Source: a virus
DNA length: 28,316 bases
Virus record (IMG/VR): IMGVR_UViG_3300043409_000317
Coordinates: 1 to 28,316 of that record
Strand: one strand, 5' to 3'
Under the pieces are notes generated by a model. That model made no database searches. It saw only the letters and a list, made by a program, of their open reading frames with translations, and had not been told where the DNA came from. The position numbers and the translations under genes are program-made. Positions within the stretch are counted from its first letter, which is position 1, and every line of letters starts with the position of its first letter. This document shows, in pieces, positions 6,503 through 24,131 of the stretch.

Positions 6503-6739
6503 ATGGATAATACATACGATAACACCTATCAAGGTCAACGTGATAGACGTGCTGACCATAATGCTGCTGGCTTAATTTTAGGCGCACAAGCCCCACAAAC
6601 ACAGAATGTAGGTGGCTGGGCTGTTGCACCTAGTGCTACATCTCAACTGGCTCAAGCACTCAAGAACTATGGTGCTATGCAACAATGGAAGAACACTATG
6701 CCACCTAGTACCGCAGTTCCACCAGTAGGAGTACCTTAA
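6503..6739 (+). CDS. Small virion-region protein sharing a motif with the next gene
   Basis: A 78-residue, Gln/Ala/Pro-rich protein of unknown function. It begins 3 bases after the previous stop. Residues 35-64 read QNVGGWAVAPSATSQLAQAL then KNYGAMQQWKN. The next protein has the related block QMVGGWYVKPTWTQNLADAM then MQYNIYKDEKD near its own N-terminus. This suggests a shared short interaction domain or a partial duplication. Its stop overlaps the next start (TAATG). The extreme C-terminus is Pro-rich. Confidence 0.65.
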   Translation: MDNTYDNTYQGQRDRRADHNAAGLILGAQAPQTQNVGGWAVAPSATSQLAQALKNYGAMQQWKNTMPPSTAVPPVGVP

Positions 6740-8517
6740 TGCCAATGAACCTGAATGACAGCCCAAAATACGGTCAGCTAAGTGGTGCTGACCTAGAGAT
6801 ACTAGGTGCTAGAGAGCAAGCTGCGACTGCTCGCGCACTCAGGAACGCGTTTAAGCCCACACAAGGACAAATGGTGGGTGGATGGTACGTTAAGCCCACA
6901 TGGACACAGAATCTCGCTGATGCGATGATGCAGTATAACATCTACAAAGATGAGAAAGATGCTAGGAACGAATACAAAACTCTCATAGGTGAGAAAAAGA
7001 GGGACATGGAAGAAATAACTGCTGAAACTATCAGGGCTCTTGGTAAGCAAACTCCTGCTCGCCAAGAAGTAGTGCCACCAGTTCAAAGCGCACCTACCAA
7101 TCAGATGGCTGGTGACTTCTTTGATTCAATGGCTAATGGCCCAGCTAATGGCACTCCTACAAACTTCTCACCAGCAGAACGCGCTATGGCATCTAATGCG
7201 CCAATGGCAGAAGCGTATACTGCGCCTACAGCAGAAGCTACAGGGAACATTAATGCAGGTGCTACAAACAATCAGTTCGTTGGTGCTGCACCCGATCAAA
7301 CTGCTCTAGCTAACGCTGTGAGGACACCAGAACCACTTCCACCAGTATCTAGTGGTCAACCTTTGCCACAAGGTCAACAAGCTAGTGCAGATGGAACGTT
7401 ACCAGCAGTTACAGTTACACCAGAGCCAGAGCCAAGCCAATTCGCACAAATGCTGCGTGGTGAAGGCCAGTATGCGCCCATACAGAAAGCTACTGTTCGT
7501 GATATACCTGCTCAAGATGGGTACGATGAAGCTGCCATGATTGCTAATGCCACTCGCGCATCGGCACGTTTCCCAGAAACATCTAAACACCTCTTTGATC
7601 TAGTTAATCAACGTAGGGTAAACGCAGCAGCTATGGCTGGTCATGGCAAGGGTGTAGCTGTAGAAGGCCAGTTGCTTAATCCGCTGACAGGAGAGCCTAT
7701 AGGTACAAGGCAGCCTAAACAACCAGCAGCAGCTAATCTCGGTACTGATTATGCGAAATTTAATCCTGATACCAACCAATGGGAAGTAAATAAACCTGTG
7801 GTAGAAAGTAAAGAAAAAATAGCAGCAGCAGGAAAGACAACAGTCGAAAACAAGATGATTAACCAGGTTGAGGGAAGTGCTAGGATGCACACCAACGAGG
7901 ACTTCATTAAGAACAGTTATAGACCTATACAAGATGCTGCTAAAGCTAGTCAATTAGTAGCAGGTAGGCTTGATGCGTTAGAAAGTTTACCAATTAGCCA
8001 GAAAACTGGCTGGGGAACTGAGGCTCAAGCTAAAGCTGCGGAAGTATTGGTTGGCATGGGATACAAGGGTGATGAGGCCAAACAGTTGGCTTCTAACTCG
8101 CAGACATTCAGAGCCATACAAGCTAGACAAGTTAATGACGAGTTAAACATGGCTAAAGGCCCACAAACCGAAGGCGATGCTGTACGCGCTAAATCAACAT
8201 TCGCAGCACTTGGCAATACACCAAATGCTAACCAATTTATCAATGACTTGCAACGTGCAATAATACAAAGAAAAGGTGCGGAGGCTAAGTTCTACCGTGA
8301 CCATTACGACCAAGCACTAAAGGATGGTGATTTATCAGTCATGGAACGAGCATGGATTAATAGCCCAGAAGCCAACAAGTCTGTATTCGATTCTCCTGTA
8401 ATGTCGAAGTGGAATAAGGCTGCCCCTACTGCTGGTGCTGGAGGATTTACCCCAACTGGTAACGCTGCTACTGACGCAGCTATTCTTAAATACGCAACTC
8501 CACCAAAGAAACCATAA
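6739..8517 (+). CDS. Large ejection-type virion protein
   Basis: A 592-residue protein, low in Cys and rich in Ala, Gln, Pro and Asn. Residues 44-75 hold the VGGW..KPTWTQNLADA motif shared with the preceding small protein. Residues 75-250 are a Pro/Ala/Thr-rich linker (PVQSAPTNQ, APTAEATG, LPPVSSGQPLPQGQ). Residues 290-590 are mainly helical (ASARFPETSKHLFDLVNQRR, ASQLVAGRLDALESLP, AEVLVGMGYKGDEAKQLA). Long helical ends joined by a flexible linker fit the internal proteins that podoviruses eject to build a channel across the envelope. No lytic transglycosylase motif is visible. Named function is inferred from composition and place. Confidence 0.65.
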   Translation: MPMNLNDSPKYGQLSGADLEILGAREQAATARALRNAFKPTQGQMVGGWYVKPTWTQNLADAMMQYNIYKDEKDARNEYKTLIGEKKRDMEEITAETIRALGKQTPARQEVVPPVQSAPTNQMAGDFFDSMANGPANGTPTNFSPAERAMASNAPMAEAYTAPTAEATGNINAGATNNQFVGAAPDQTALANAVRTPEPLPPVSSGQPLPQGQQASADGTLPAVTVTPEPEPSQFAQMLRGEGQYAPIQKATVRDIPAQDGYDEAAMIANATRASARFPETSKHLFDLVNQRRVNAAAMAGHGKGVAVEGQLLNPLTGEPIGTRQPKQPAAANLGTDYAKFNPDTNQWEVNKPVVESKEKIAAAGKTTVENKMINQVEGSARMHTNEDFIKNSYRPIQDAAKASQLVAGRLDALESLPISQKTGWGTEAQAKAAEVLVGMGYKGDEAKQLASNSQTFRAIQARQVNDELNMAKGPQTEGDAVRAKSTFAALGNTPNANQFINDLQRAIIQRKGAEAKFYRDHYDQALKDGDLSVMERAWINSPEANKSVFDSPVMSKWNKAAPTAGAGGFTPTGNAATDAAILKYATPPKKP

Positions 8518-18180: not shown

Positions 18181-18184
18181 AGTG

Positions 18185-18787
18185 TTATTCTCCTTTGGTT
18201 AATTGTAGTTTACGAGCATCTTTAGCTTCAATGATACGCGGATGGTGCTGTTTACCACACATGGCCATTGCTGCATCAAAGTTGGACTTGAGCAACTCCA
18301 TGTTTGCTGACGAACGTACTGCCTTAATCAGATTAACTGCATCATCTGTACCGACTGCTGCGGAGGCATCTAGGGCATCATGCTCGACTATCTCCATAGC
18401 CGTGACCCAGAGATACCTACGCTGATAGGTCTGGACTGCGCCTATGTTCTGGACTTCATGGCAACCTTTGAGGGCTGCTGACCCCATTGGGCTTGTAATG
18501 ACCAGTTCTCCACCACCCTCAGTATCAATGATCGTGAGTGTAGCTGTGTCTGCTGTGAACGAGATTGCCGAACACAAACCCAGTTCGTAGAATATCTGCT
18601 GGATGCTAGGCAAAAAATCTCCCAGTTCAAAATACTGGTACTTTGCGAAGGAATTTACACCTGACTTCTTGAGGGGGAGTGCTGCTAGTTGTTGCCTGGC
18701 CTCCATCAACTTACGATAGACACCCAGGTAAGCCATCTGCTGCTGTGCTTCCTGTTCCTGCTGTTGCTGACCGTTATCATCTCTCAT
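18185..18787 (-). CDS. ERF-family single-strand annealing protein
   Basis: A 200-residue recombinase. After a Gln-rich start (residues 7-17), the family pattern is clear: LAALPLKKSGVNSFAKYQYF (34-53), ELGDFLPSIQQ, and GAVQTYQRRYLWVTAMEI (116-133), the conserved ERF block. It should anneal complementary strands, allowing genome circularisation or repair by recombination, with SSB from the next gene. RBS AGAGGAGA lies before ATG 18787 inside a 30-bp sequence that is repeated exactly, in the other direction, at 21291-21320. It is the first gene of the leftward operon. Confidence 0.9.
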   Translation of the reverse strand: MRDDNGQQQQEQEAQQQMAYLGVYRKLMEARQQLAALPLKKSGVNSFAKYQYFELGDFLPSIQQIFYELGLCSAISFTADTATLTIIDTEGGGELVITSPMGSAALKGCHEVQNIGAVQTYQRRYLWVTAMEIVEHDALDASAAVGTDDAVNLIKAVRSSANMELLKSNFDAAMAMCGKQHHPRIIEAKDARKLQLTKGE

Positions 18788-18813
18788 TTTGATTCTCCTC
18801 TGTGGTTAATGTT
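18784..18813 (-). repeat. 30-bp leader/RBS/start repeat, copy 1 (before ERF gene)
   Basis: Read leftward, the element starts AACATTAACC, carries RBS AGAGGAGA and ends with the start codon plus one base (ATGA). It is identical over all 30 bases to 21291-21320, which is rightward. The identity stops exactly at both ends: neighbouring bases differ. Confidence 0.9.
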
Positions 18814-18823
18814 GCAGACTGAC

Positions 18824-18851
18824 AGTATCACACTTTTAGACAAGTGTGTAA
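18824..18851 (-). promoter_or_regulatory. Leftward promoter with palindromic operator
   Basis: On the minus strand, TTACAC (18851-18846) and GATACT (18829-18824) are 16 bases apart, a weak sigma-70 match. CACACTT (18829-18835) and AAGTGTG (18842-18848) form a perfect 7-bp inverted repeat around 6 bases, lying almost exactly between the two hexamers. That is the layout of a repressor operator. The expected transcript start lies next to the 30-bp leader repeat. Confidence 0.5.
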
Positions 18852-18888
18852 GTATTTTGTGGTAGCCTATACCGAGCCTAAGTAGGGT

Positions 18889-18938
18889 AGGCAAACTTGT
18901 TGCCGAACTTGCCTAACTTTTTTGCCTAATTTGCCTAG
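18889..18938. repeat. Array of TTGCC-type 9-mers
   Basis: TTGCCGAAC (18900), TTGCCTAAC (18909), TTGCCTAAT (18922) and TTGCCTAGT (18931) are two tandem pairs split by four T. TAGGCAAAC just before (18889-18897) is the same unit inverted. Regular repeats at one place in a control region point to a multi-site DNA-binding protein, either a replication initiator or a regulator. Confidence 0.65.
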
Positions 18939-18941
18939 TGT

Positions 18942-18973
18942 CCATATTCTGTATCGCTCCATATTCTGGAGCG
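18942..18973. repeat. 10-bp direct repeat overlapping a 6-bp hairpin
   Basis: CCATATTCTG occurs at 18942-18951 and 18959-18968. The second copy lies within CGCTCC-ATATTCT-GGAGCG (18955-18973), a perfect 6-bp stem. No U-tract follows on either strand, so a binding site is more likely than a terminator. Confidence 0.55.
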
Positions 18974-19097
18974 TGAAAAAAGTGTTGCCTGTAGGGGGTA
19001 TATACATTCAAGGTAGGGTAGCCTACCCCAACCACGTTATCCCCAGCCCCACCCCCTCAAAACGCGTTTAAATGGCATACCTATATACGAGTGTGGG

Positions 19098-19165
19098 TAG
19101 ACAACATGGCCAACACACTCAAGATGTCCAACATGGCCACATAAATAACTTGGACACCTTGGCCA
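19098..19165. repeat. Three 15-bp iteron-like repeats (period 26-27 bp)
   Basis: TAGACAACATGGCCA (19098-19112), TGTCCAACATGGCCA (19125-19139) and TGGACACCTTGGCCA (19151-19165) share the core CA..WTGGCCA. Starts are 27 and 26 bp apart, about two and a half helix turns. Each unit contains the self-complementary TGGCCA. The arrangement resembles iterons or cooperative operator sites ahead of the replication genes. Confidence 0.65.
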
Positions 19166-19185
19166 CCTTACCTAAAAGAAAATAC

Positions 19186-19215
19186 TTGTTGGCAAAGTAA
19201 AATCTGTGGTACAGT
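19186..19215 (+). promoter_or_regulatory. Rightward promoter candidate for the replication operon
   Basis: TTGTTG (19186-19191) and TACAGT (19210-19215) are separated by 18 bases. It lies between the 15-bp repeats and the long hairpin RNA, so transcripts would begin shortly before the hairpin. CTGCA-TCT-TGCAG follows at 19220-19232. Confidence 0.4.
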
Positions 19216-19253
19216 TCAACTGCATCTTGCAGGTGCATTGAAATAAGATAAGC

Positions 19254-19346
19254 AAGACTTCATAAACACCCTGACGGTTTTTGCTTCTCTTTCCGTTCTG
19301 CAAGCCCCTAGAAATAGTGGCAGGGTGTTTTTGAAGTCTTTTTGCA
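19254..19346 (+). ncRNA. Long hairpin RNA with U-tract: leader attenuator or small RNA
   Basis: The left arm 19254-19273 (AAGACTTCATAAACACCCTG) pairs with the right arm 19321-19340 (CAGGGTGTTTTTGAAGTCTT) with a single mismatch in 20 pairs. A 47-base loop lies between them and contains further short complements (ACGG/CCGT). TTTTT follows the stem. The RBS of the first rightward gene (GGAGG) begins only 10 bases after this. It could be a terminator-attenuator in the leader of the operon, or the 3' end of a separate short RNA. Confidence 0.55.
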
Positions 19347-19364
19347 TTTTAAATTGGAGGAATT

Positions 19365-19586
19365 ATGAAACTGAAAGAAACAGTAGCAACGCTGACCTTT
19401 ATTTCTGATACTGGATACTATGTAATAAGTCAACCAGAAGTGTGTTCCCACACAGGCGATACAATATATTCAAACATTGTTCTATCACCAGAACAGATGC
19501 GCCCAATTATCGTGGACATGGAGTCAAAACTTATATACGCAGACGAATGGTGGTCTACCCAAGGCAGCGAAGAAAGCGAGGTATAG
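19365..19586 (+). CDS. Small hypothetical protein, first gene of rightward operon
   Basis: A 73-residue protein, not recognised. It begins MKLKETVATLTFISDTGYYV and has an acidic C-terminus (STQGSEESEV). It alternates short strands with no membrane segment. The RBS TTGGAGGAATT is the strongest in this area, suggesting abundant early expression. It ends one base before the replication initiator gene. A role in early host take-over or regulation would fit its place but cannot be shown. Confidence 0.7.
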   Translation: MKLKETVATLTFISDTGYYVISQPEVCSHTGDTIYSNIVLSPEQMRPIIVDMESKLIYADEWWSTQGSEESEV

Positions 19587-19587
19587 G

Positions 19588-20379
19588 ATGCAATATTACA
19601 AACACCATATTGGTGACTTCATCAAGGACACATCAAATCTTGATGACCACCAATCCATGACCTACTTACGGATGTTATGGAAGTATTACCTAGACGAATC
19701 ACCTTTATCTGGATCATGCGAAGATATTGCGTTTACTGTGCGTTCGGATGAAAAAACGGTGCGAACGCTTCTCAAGCATTTTTTTATCTCCAGAGATGGT
19801 GCGTGGATTCATATTCGCTGCGAGAGGGAAATTAAAGGGTTTTACGATAAATCAGAGAAGGCTAGAGCATCTGCCAAATCCCGATGGGATGCCAATACTA
19901 TGCAAACGCAATGCGAACGCATAGCGAACGCATCCAAAATTGATGCGAACGTACCGAAAAGTGATGCGGATTGTATGCTACCCATAACCCATAACCCACT
20001 ACCCATTATAAAAACAAAAACAACTACAGCAAAGATGCCTACACCTGACGGTGTATCTCCTGAGTTATGGTCTGATTACTTGTCTGTAAGAAAAGGCAAG
20101 CCAATGACACAGACGGCACTAAACGGCATCGCAAGGGAAGCAACCAAAGCTGGGCTATCTCTGGAAGCTGGCCTTAGAGTTTGTGCCGAACGTGGTTGGT
20201 CAGGATTAAAAGCTGAATGGCTGGATGACAAGAAGCTGACCGTACACCAACAGCAGATGCAAGCGTTTGCTAGAGGTATTGGGATAGGTCGTACACAGGA
20301 AGTACCACACTATGAACATGAAGCCATTCAAATCTTTGACAACCCACAACTGGAGGACAATAGCCATGAGCAATTCTGA
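19588..20379 (+). CDS. Replication initiator-type protein, DUF1376 N-terminus
   Basis: A 263-residue protein. I start it at ATG 19588 (MQYYKHHIGDFIKDTSNLDD) just after the previous stop with AGG upstream. Residues 1-90 are the DUF1376 / YdaU winged-helix-like domain (HQSMTYLRMLWKYYLDESPL, then a helix-turn-helix with EKTVRTLLKHFF). Residues 95-150 are a polar linker encoded by repeated DNA. Residues 155-225 (GVSPELWSDYLSVRKGKPMT, GLSLEAGLRVCAERGW.GLKAEWL) are typical of phage O-like replication proteins. It precedes a P-like helicase-loader gene, matching the O-P gene order of lambdoid phages. It probably binds the origin. Confidence 0.8.
   Translation: MQYYKHHIGDFIKDTSNLDDHQSMTYLRMLWKYYLDESPLSGSCEDIAFTVRSDEKTVRTLLKHFFISRDGAWIHIRCEREIKGFYDKSEKARASAKSRWDANTMQTQCERIANASKIDANVPKSDADCMLPITHNPLPIIKTKTTTAKMPTPDGVSPELWSDYLSVRKGKPMTQTALNGIAREATKAGLSLEAGLRVCAERGWSGLKAEWLDDKKLTVHQQQMQAFARGIGIGRTQEVPHYEHEAIQIFDNPQLEDNSHEQF
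19900..20008 (+). repeat. Iteron-like repeats inside the replication gene: candidate origin
   Basis: ATGCAAACGCA (19900), ATGCGAACGCA (19911) and TAGCGAACGCA (19922) are tandem 11-mers; after 10 bases ATGCGAACGTA follows (19943), and after another 10 the degenerate ATGCGGATTGT (19964). Then come four 7-mers: CCCATAA, CCCATAA, CCCACTA, CCCATTA (19981-20008), and an A-rich tract to about 20032. This mirrors the phage lambda origin, where iterons and an A/T-rich segment lie within the initiator gene O. Origin function is inferred. Confidence 0.6.
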
Positions 20380-20770
20380 CCATAAGCCACTACCGTTTAG
20401 CTGGATTGAGGAGATATTTCAAACCATGTTCAACAACTACGGAAGCGAGTTTGCCCGAAAGTGGTCATCTGGTGTACTGGATGCTCATAAGAACGATGAG
20501 GGATTACAAAGTATCAAAAAGGCTTGGTGTGTGAAGCTAGGAGGCTTTGTAAACGACAAGGGTGCTATCAAGAACGCGCTATTGAACTTACCAGAGCATC
20601 CGCCTAGCTTACCTGCTTTTGAAGCCCTATGTAAGCAGTTCAGAACCACAGAAGCGTACCATGCTCTGCCAAACCACCTATCTGAAACTGCTATTGCCAA
20701 TGGTAAAAAGCAACTAGCAAGTATTATGCGTATGTTGGAAACATCAAAACTACTCAAGGAGGCCAAATGA
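20366..20770 (+). CDS. Helicase-loader candidate (phage replication protein P-like)
   Basis: A 134-residue protein. I start it at ATG 20366 (MSNSDHKPLPFSWIEEIFQT), where GGAGG lies upstream and the gene overlaps the initiator gene by 14 bases. WIEEIFQTMFNNYGSEFARK, then IKKAWCVKLGGF, a short helix, and PPSLPAFEALCKQF are the pattern of phage P-like replication proteins, which recruit the host DnaB helicase. The gene is shorter than lambda P (about 230 residues), so only the part common to small members is present. Its stop overlaps the next start. Confidence 0.7.
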   Translation: MSNSDHKPLPFSWIEEIFQTMFNNYGSEFARKWSSGVLDAHKNDEGLQSIKKAWCVKLGGFVNDKGAIKNALLNLPEHPPSLPAFEALCKQFRTTEAYHALPNHLSETAIANGKKQLASIMRMLETSKLLKEAK

Positions 20771-20946
20771 TGTGGAAACAGACTAGCCCAGTAAGTATCG
20801 TAGAAACCGAAGGCGATTGGCACATAGACAGGAACACGGTCTGCGGAGTAACCAAATACTGCCTGTATCGTGGGCGCGATGTGGTAGGCTCTTACGTTAC
20901 TGCTGCGAAGGCCAAAGCAGCCAAACTTGAAATGGAGACAAAATGA
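20770..20946 (+). CDS. Small phage protein (58 aa)
   Basis: Not recognised by name. MWKQTSPVSIVETEGDWHID then a short turn and YCLYRGRDVVGSYVTAAKAK resemble small phage proteins with a two-strand sheet and a C-terminal Ala/Lys helix. AAGGAGG lies 7 bases before ATG 20770; an ATG three bases earlier would add one Met. The stop overlaps the next start (ATGA). It is a link in a chain of coupled early genes. Confidence 0.65.
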   Translation: MWKQTSPVSIVETEGDWHIDRNTVCGVTKYCLYRGRDVVGSYVTAAKAKAAKLEMETK

Positions 20947-21197
20947 GGAACTTTCTGGACTATTCATTAATAGCAATCGCTGTGATCTTAATGCTCGCCA
21001 TGACCGACATCTTCGCTTGCCCATCTAAAGGCATCGAGAAGCTGCCAGAACACCTTGTGAAGCCCTACTGCGAGTGCTATCACAGGATTATGCTTGAGCC
21101 AAGATGGGTAATGCCTGGGCGCGAAAGAGCCGAGTTAATCTGCGGTGGACAAGCGTGGGACAAGGCTTACAGGGAATCTAGGGGTAAATTTAAATAA
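20943..21197 (+). CDS. Small membrane-anchored or exported Cys-rich protein
   Basis: An 84-residue protein. Residues 8-24 (SLIAIAVILMLAMTDIFAC) are a hydrophobic segment that could be a signal peptide or membrane anchor; a Cys at position 26 lies close to it, so a lipoprotein is conceivable although the box is not canonical. The outer part holds CECYHRI and LICGGQAWDKAY. Start overlaps the previous gene (ATGA). Possible roles are envelope protection of the infected cell or a spanin-like part, but neither is proven. Confidence 0.6.
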   Translation: MRNFLDYSLIAIAVILMLAMTDIFACPSKGIEKLPEHLVKPYCECYHRIMLEPRWVMPGRERAELICGGQAWDKAYRESRGKFK

Positions 21198-21209
21198 ATC
21201 TTCACTTTC

Positions 21210-21269
21210 CTTGATAATTGTCAAGATAAATCGTGTTTATGTGCTTGTGGAACGTATTTACATATGTAA
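21210..21269. promoter_or_regulatory. Two palindromes before the second rightward gene block
   Basis: CTTGATAATTGTCAAG (21210-21225) is a near-perfect 16-bp palindrome (14 of 16 bases). TTACATATGTAA (21258-21269) is a perfect 12-bp one. They lie in the 119-bp gap after 21197. A promoter of the form TTGTGG-16-TAATTA (21245-21272) overlaps the second palindrome. A regulated internal promoter is likely. Confidence 0.45.
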
Positions 21270-21290
21270 TTATTCGTCTGCACCAAACGA

Positions 21291-21320
21291 AACATTAACC
21301 ACAGAGGAGAATCAAAATGA
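21291..21320 (+). repeat. 30-bp leader/RBS/start repeat, copy 2
   Basis: Starts AACATTAACC, contains RBS AGAGGAGA and ends in ATGA of the gene at 21317. Identical over 30 bases to the inverted copy at 18784-18813, so the two genes have the same 5' leader and initiation region although their proteins differ. Confidence 0.9.
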
Positions 21321-21532
21321 ACGCTTACCAAATTTTTGACACATCTACATCAGACGAAAATCTATATGCTACCGCACAGGATAGGGCTGATAGTTGGTTT
21401 TGGGAAGACGAGTGCGAGGTAATGATTTTTAAGGATGGGTCATACTTGAGTTTTGATAAAATGCACCAGTATAAGCATCATGGTTACTGCAAAACCACAG
21501 GCGCAGATACATCCATGAGGCATTGTTATTAA
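21317..21532 (+). CDS. Small hypothetical protein (71 aa)
   Basis: Not recognised. MNAYQIFDTSTSDENLYATA, then a Trp/Asp/Glu-rich turn (DSWFWEDECEVMIF) and a His/Tyr-rich end (KMHQYKHHGYCKTTG). It looks like a small soluble domain. It is translated from the same 30-bp leader as the ERF gene, which suggests similar translation level or common control. Confidence 0.65.
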   Translation: MNAYQIFDTSTSDENLYATAQDRADSWFWEDECEVMIFKDGSYLSFDKMHQYKHHGYCKTTGADTSMRHCY

Positions 21533-21563
21533 GGCGAAAGCCCCACTTAAAGGGATAATCAAA

Positions 21564-21851
21564 ATGAACAGCACAGTAGAATTTGACACAGTAGTAGGCG
21601 ATAACCTAGAAGTAACCGTAGAAGGTGAATACTCAGGCGAGGACAGGGACTTTGGCTGCGAAGTCACCAAGGTTTATATCACTACCGACACAGCTAAAAA
21701 TGATATACTTTACCTTCTGTCAAAGCTAGGCAAGGACATACTGGATTCAGAATTGTGGGATGTATGCTACATGGACATGGAGGCTCAACAGCGCGAGGCT
21801 GACGAGGCTAGAGCAGATGCTAAACGTGATAACGAAATGTTCGGAGGCTGA
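21564..21851 (+). CDS. Small acidic hypothetical protein (95 aa)
   Basis: Not recognised. Residues 1-45 alternate strands (STVEFDTVVGDNLEVTVEGE, GCEVTKVYITTD); residues 48-95 are a charged helix (ILYLLSKLGKDILDSELWDV then AQQREADEARADAKR). Many Asp and Glu. A GGC-GAAA-GCC mini-hairpin and AAAGGGA precede ATG 21564. High acidity in an early phage protein can mean DNA mimicry of a host factor, but the charge pattern alone is weak evidence. Confidence 0.65.
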   Translation: MNSTVEFDTVVGDNLEVTVEGEYSGEDRDFGCEVTKVYITTDTAKNDILYLLSKLGKDILDSELWDVCYMDMEAQQREADEARADAKRDNEMFGG

Positions 21852-23968: not shown

Positions 23969-24131
23969 GATTGAGGAGTTGAAGAAGGAGATGGATGCTT
24001 GCAGGGCTGCGTGGGATGTTGCGGATGCTGCTGCGGATGATGCGAAGGTTGCTGTGGATGATGCTGCGGATGCTGCGGATGCTGCGTGGGATGCTTACCA
24101 AGCTGCACTAAAGGAGGTGAAGAATGACTGA
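23961..24131 (+). CDS. Ala/Asp-repeat coiled-coil small protein (56 aa)
   Basis: After MTKIEELKKEMDACRAAWDV the sequence is a run of A-D-A units (ADAAADDAKVAVDDAADAAD, AAWDAYQAAL) encoded by tandem GATGCTGCG repeats. This should be a single acidic amphipathic helix. Repeat number can change by slippage. Start and stop overlap both neighbours. Similar Ala/Asp-rich mini-proteins occur in other phage early regions; the role is unknown. Confidence 0.6.
   Translation: MTKIEELKKEMDACRAAWDVADAAADDAKVAVDDAADAADAAWDAYQAALKEVKND

Follow-up and report, generated by a model that had tools for sequence, protein, structure and literature searches.

The start-associated sequences (SAS) and extended SAS (ESAS) are found in cluster K mycobacteriophages and in cluster EF Microbacterium phages (PMC3203893, PMC7302621). 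In T4-type phages, the intergenic promoter early stem-loop (PeSL) cassettes contain an early promoter and a stem-loop and are tied to the shuffling of open reading frames (ORFs), according to their description in PMC4503421. Cluster O mycobacteriophages possess palindromic 17-bp repeats that flank gained or lost genes and that, according to the paper, have no close link with gene starts (PMC4351075). The virus record IMGVR_UViG_3300043409_000317, analyzed here as one stretch of 28,316 bases (the window) and probably incomplete, contains a 30-nt repeat at two gene starts. One copy precedes the gene for an ERF single-strand annealing protein and the other precedes a 71-aa ORF. These copies are probably members of a multicopy, lineage-specific, start-associated leader module with a ribosome-binding site (RBS) that is reused before many genes and that may also be a joint for ORF exchange.

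The two copies are located at 18784-18813 (-) and 21291-21320 (+). A repeat search of the window found their 30-nt arms to be 100% complementary, with 2477 nt between them, and this agrees with a sequence-only reading of the same DNA, which had noticed 30 identical bases over leader, RBS, and start. Each copy spans the leader, the Shine-Dalgarno sequence (SD; AGAGGAG), a spacer, and the ATG with one further base of the gene. Besides this pair, no second perfect repeat of at least 20 nt was found in the whole window. A 25-nt part of the repeat, searched with up to 3 mismatches, matches just the two known places in the window and has 0 matches in 100 dinucleotide-preserving shuffles. When the 30-mer was compared with 2.3 Gb of phage records, the best match was about 26 of 29-30 bases. 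Thus, convergence of RBSs does not reach 30 of 30, and the earlier statement that RBS similarity is insufficient was upheld. Both flanks recur in other, independent contigs, and therefore the pair is not an assembly artefact.

Relatives were found by pattern and protein scans of IMG/VR. The close set consists of G001/L001 (37,122 bp), G002/L002, G003/L007, G006/L144, G007/L153, and G008/L194, the last of which ends short of the leader region. G004/L094 and G005/L139 are more distant. The phage collection contained no isolate similar to the window; there were two short matches of 72-76%. A scan of IMG/VR with the 15-mer core, ATTAACCACAGAGGA, gave 101 stretches, mostly coding or unrelated leaders, and the family contigs alone were retained. 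The core (0-2 mismatches) has 14 start-proximal copies in 8 contigs including the window. Eleven of the 14 are exact, and the ATG is 2-8 nt after the core in every one. Eight ORF families are found behind the leader: ERF, small first or second ORFs of 71, 67, 58, 56, and 55 aa, a 95-aa family, and a 97-aa ORF (G005). The 67-aa and 55-aa ORFs resemble each other weakly along 23 residues (E=0.003). Within the window and G001, every copy is among replication and small non-structural genes. The two copies in the window are real, but the "pair" of the earlier reading belongs to a multicopy family that is seen in related contigs.

At the ERF locus, the core is invariant in the window, G001, G002, and G006, and it is diverged and shortened in G003. 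The bases just before the ERF ATG vary, with CAAA in the window and TAC, CAC, or TACA in relatives. The reported identity at this locus does extend over 30 nt in the window, but three of the four relatives keep only the first 22 nt (AACATTAACCACAGAGGAGAAT). This 22-nt stretch is common to both loci in G001 and G002 too, and therefore the sharing of the core predates the window phage. The spacer tail CAAAATG is common at starts in the leader family, as at the 95-aa gene (window and G001) and a 66-aa ORF (G004). The 30-nt identity in the window is thus composed of the 22-nt stretch and this family-common tail.

The copies are multiple, are always at starts, and are present before unrelated ORFs. 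The ORFs change exactly behind the leader, and the DNA up to the ATG is nearly identical. At the small-ORF site, which is downstream of an 84-aa gene, the identity of the window to G001, its closest long relative, is 98% at -80..-23, 100% at -22..-1, and 30% past the start codon. BLAST homology between them halts at 21321 and restarts at 21551, just ahead of the 95-aa gene. One 29-mer precedes three different ORFs, since the 71-aa ORF of the window is replaced by unrelated ORFs of 67 aa in G001 and 56 aa in G002. In G002, the leader is retained and the upstream region is different. The 71-aa ORF is absent in G006 and G007, where the 95-aa gene is directly behind the leader. The earlier reading had listed the copying of a ready-made leader among its options, and this option is supported by the related contigs, in which eight ORF families are found behind one leader and homology does not go past the start codon. 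In G001/L001, a 203-aa ORF (6539-7150, -) is present before the 84-aa gene. Its start junction is of the CATTTCTTCTCC type, as at the 84-aa gene of G002, and this resembles a further case in which a gene was inserted at a start codon.

Later members of the arrays carry a hairpin plus the leader. The small ORFs in G001, G002, G004, and G005 are separated by a stop codon, a GGGGC-NNNN-GCCCC hairpin, the leader or a shorter SD, and the ATG. At some further copies, a GGGGC-GCAA-GCCCC hairpin is followed by the leader between tandem small ORFs, and G004 has a hairpin-plus-leader linker before the 95-aa gene. Fuller linker forms, GGGGCGCAAGCCCC..leader..ATG, are found in the same four contigs, and the form in the window, at the junction of the 71-aa and 95-aa ORFs, is degenerate. 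About 20-35 nt separate the hairpin from the ATG, and the leader occupies this space. The hairpin GGGGCGCAAGCCCC with an SD was rejected as a marker of the family. It precedes many different leaders in unrelated phages and is generic alone.

The more distant ERF phages, with about 50-60% ERF identity, include a second lineage that has this architecture but a leader of its own, TAATTGACAACAACA(A)GGAG..ATG (TTGACAACAACA..GGAG). A total of 80 copies were found, with 30 loci of 2-3 copies each, some of which overlap, and the ORFs form about a dozen clusters. The upstream DNA common to first copies is GTAAAGTCCGTCTTGT-like, and later copies have the GGGGGCGCAAGCCCCC hairpin in common. Behind the nearly identical upstream DNA, there are 14 distinct first ORFs (about eight families). 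Some ORF families are found in both first (promoter-type) and later (hairpin-type) positions, as shuffling predicts. Judged from these sequences, the second lineage is an independent replicate of the leader architecture.

The module can be read as a short 5′ untranslated region with an RBS, in which the A/C-rich ATTAACCAC is followed by the strong SD AGAGGAG, an A-rich spacer, and the ATG. Predicted SD pairing of both window copies is better than average (joint rank 8 of 45 genes), and their start regions are fairly open (ranks 12 and 14 of 45). Because the copies are always at starts, contain AGAGGAG, and have good ranks for SD pairing and openness, a role in translation initiation is the plain reading. 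Ahead of the SD, the A/C-rich ATTAACCAC is conserved although it does not pair with 16S rRNA. From the same argument, conserved bases without 16S pairing, the authors of the SAS study suspected an extra role (PMC3203893). In the present phages, ATTAACCAC is a candidate ribosome-binding enhancer, a candidate site for a phage factor, or possibly retained recombination homology. The leader is predicted to be weakly structured (two copies in the window, z = +0.5 and +1.0), with no defined hairpin, and a search of Rfam gave no match. A special RNA structure in the leader was rejected on these grounds. Unusual conservation of the ERF leader was also rejected, as this leader is not exceptional in comparison with others. 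The SSB leader at 18181-18208 (-), CTACAATTAACCAAAGGAGAATAACACT-ATG, is located within the end of the ERF gene and resembles a third leader relative that is 2 nt shorter (ATTAACC..AGGAGAAT). This segment also encodes ..LQLTKGE and the stop, and the likeness may be coincidence.

The favored explanation is a ready-made expression leader that would double as an ORF-exchange joint. In the phage family, this leader would serve ERF as well as an array of small non-structural ORFs. An acquired ORF could gain efficient or co-ordinated translation from the leader, whose short stretch of identity could be the joint at which homologous recombination between phages inserts, removes, or exchanges ORFs. Such exchange perhaps proceeds through ERF-type annealing. 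Matches to Pfam ERF and PHROG 155 confirm the annealase that the earlier reading had placed next to one copy. There are several points that weigh against this explanation. The close relatives are few (8 contigs) and mostly fragments, and the window itself has two close copies only, compared with 11-19 in cluster K phages. The ranks for SD and accessibility are good and not exceptional. Several other leaders are at least as well conserved between relatives as the ERF leader, and therefore a function beyond the RBS rests on multiplicity and not on the rate of change. Recombination is deduced from mosaicism.

Other explanations can be considered for the same copies. The leader could be a shared translational operator, at which a phage-encoded RNA-binding protein, or else an RNA of the phage or the host, would switch ERF jointly with the small ORFs. 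Its copies cover the SD and start codon, the site of action of translational repressors, and ATTAACCAC is conserved upstream of the SD in a way that 16S pairing does not explain. The core is also kept while the spacer tail drifts. Independent drift of the two leaders, which the sequence-only reading would have counted against a link between them, is seen in the spacer tails of relatives, but the core hardly drifts. However, no candidate regulator was identified, and the weak predicted structure and the Rfam result also speak against an operator, which seems unlikely. In a more specific form, also rather unlikely, a phage factor would recognize ATTAACCACAGAGGAG as a sequence-specific RNA operator and co-regulate ERF and the captured small ORF. 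If so, new genes would join a post-transcriptional regulon by landing at the leader, and separate lineages would carry separate operator/factor pairs. A pure recent duplication, in which the window ERF leader was overwritten by the small-ORF leader, or was its source, and has no function of its own, appears improbable. The end of the ERF leader, CAAAATG, matches the small-ORF leader in the window alone (relatives have TACATG, CACATG, and TACAATG). However, this tail is common at other starts of the family and may have arisen independently, and the 22-nt core at both loci of G001 and G002 makes the sharing older than the window phage.

The sequence-only reading had also offered an inversion site that could flip the 18.8-21.3 kb segment. 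Such a flip would exchange the promoter of ERF with that of the small-ORF array. The copies are inverted, a flip would leave both leaders intact, and the annealase gene adjoins one copy. However, in each relative that covers it (G001, G002, G003, and G006), the segment is collinear with the window, and the ERF-type and small-ORF-type upstream DNA is never swapped among copies, so that each locus keeps its own. No recombinase was found among the 20 window proteins scanned from this probably incomplete 28-kb record. Inversion was rejected because of the collinear relatives and is very improbable. The opposite orientation of the copies is explained by the leftward ERF operon and the rightward small-ORF array. 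Chance or ordinary RBS convergence has a negligible likelihood. Both copies are in the RBS position, where SDs and A-rich spacers recur, and AGGAGAATCAAAATG-like strings are present in other phages. The shuffle and phage-record searches described above speak against chance, and the recurrence of the copies at the same places in relatives refutes it. Two possible sources of the leader were also rejected. Kinship with the leaders of Krischvirus (T4-like) was attributed to RBS convergence, as there is a 26/29 match, in one PeSL-like context, and the long leader is not multicopy there. A bacterial source was considered from three bacterial-genome matches, none of which points to a host origin. One is in a Spirulina metagenome-assembled genome, and the two enterobacterial ones, located before a small and unrelated gene, are apparently due to chance.

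The features around the two copies are collected in Table 1.

Table 1. Features at the two leader copies in the window.
Feature	Position	Strand	Remarks
ERF single-strand annealing protein gene, 200 aa	18185..18787	-	Pfam PF04404 E=3.4e-10; PHROG 155 E=2.9e-22
Leader copy 1 (AACATTAACCACAGAGGAGAATCAAAATGA)	18784..18813	-	ERF start codon 18785-18787; core ATTAACCACAGAGGA at 18796-18810
Conserved region upstream of ERF leader (TTACACACTTGTCTAAAAGTGTGATACTGTCAGTCTGC)	18814..18856	-	Inverted repeat ACACTT-N6-AAGTGT; in G001, G002, G003, mostly G006
Conserved region upstream of leader copy 2	21222..21290	+	Common to G001, G007; other DNA in G002
Leader copy 2	21291..21320	+	Start codon of 71-aa ORF 21317-21319; core at 21294-21308
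71-aa ORF, exchangeable first ORF behind leader copy 2	21317..21532	+	Differs between relatives
Degenerate hairpin linker (TAAGGCGAAAGCCCCACTTAAAGGGATAATCAAAATG)	21530..21566	+	Between 71-aa and 95-aa ORFs; read from sequence
95-aa ORF	21564..21851	+	Homologues in G004, G006, G007 carry leader

The 71-aa ORF has no match in Pfam or PHROG. The conserved region upstream of leader copy 2 is probably its promoter region, and the one upstream of the ERF leader has a putative promoter or operator role. A sigma-70 promoter scan gave no candidate at either leader copy. The inverted repeats upstream of the leaders are unlike each other, with CTTGATAATTGTCAAG at 21206-21224 (TTGACAATTGTCAA and TTGACAAATGTCAA in relatives) and ACACTT-N6-AAGTGT at 18829-18848, and are candidate operators. 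A cluster of TTGCCTA/TAGGC repeats is present at 18860-18950, between ERF and the rightward genes. It is partly replaced in G001, G003, and G006 and is possibly an origin or operator region. Farther away, an ORF like NUMOD4/HNH homing endonucleases (1378-1902, -) falls within a gap (1345-2002) in the BLAST homology to G001. Repeats of the GGATGCTGC type (24014-24093) are present within a 56-aa ORF (AADAADA-like) and vary in relatives.

These leaders would extend SAS-type elements from actinobacterial phages, the only phages for which the literature search found them, to uncultured ERF phages, in two lineages with two leaders. The leader repeat can be tied to a sharp ORF swap at the start codon. 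This provides a concrete model of how phages insert unknown small genes at expression sites that are already in place, and the leader, or the hairpin plus leader, can be used as a sequence handle for finding accessory ORFs.

Like SAS, the leader is a short asymmetric repeat in the RBS position, in the same orientation relative to the gene in all 14 copies. It has an SD (AGGA(G) in SAS and AGAGGAG here) and conserved bases without 16S pairing, here ATTAACCAC. It is also found before non-structural genes of different families, is specific to a phage lineage, and has a second element directly upstream of some copies. Unlike SAS, its sequence is unrelated to GGGATAGGAGCCC / GGGAAAGGACCCC, and the SAS consensus GGGATAGGAGCCC is not found in it. 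There are 2-3 copies per contig here compared with 11-19 per genome in cluster K, and the conserved leader is longer (15-22 nt or more). The upstream element is a GGGGC-NNNN-GCCCC hairpin at some copies, whereas ESAS is a 17-bp imperfect inverted repeat. The present phages are metagenomic and uncultured, and no isolate that resembles them is in the phage collection. The cluster O repeats are likewise short and located at junctions of gene gain or loss, but they are palindromic and away from starts. PeSL cassettes, as PMC4503421 describes them, share with these arrays a stem-loop module between small early ORFs (G001, G002, G004, and G005; degenerate in the window) and ORF shuffling. In contrast to those cassettes, the linkers here are without an early promoter, the 20-35 nt from hairpin to ATG are filled by the leader, and the RBS leader is the conserved part. 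Upstream of the first copy in every array, however, there is conserved DNA, possibly a promoter. As these systems are defined, the leader is SAS-like and a member of neither group. It is outside SAS because the sequence, copy number, and ESAS element differ, and outside PeSL because the linkers do not have the defining promoter.

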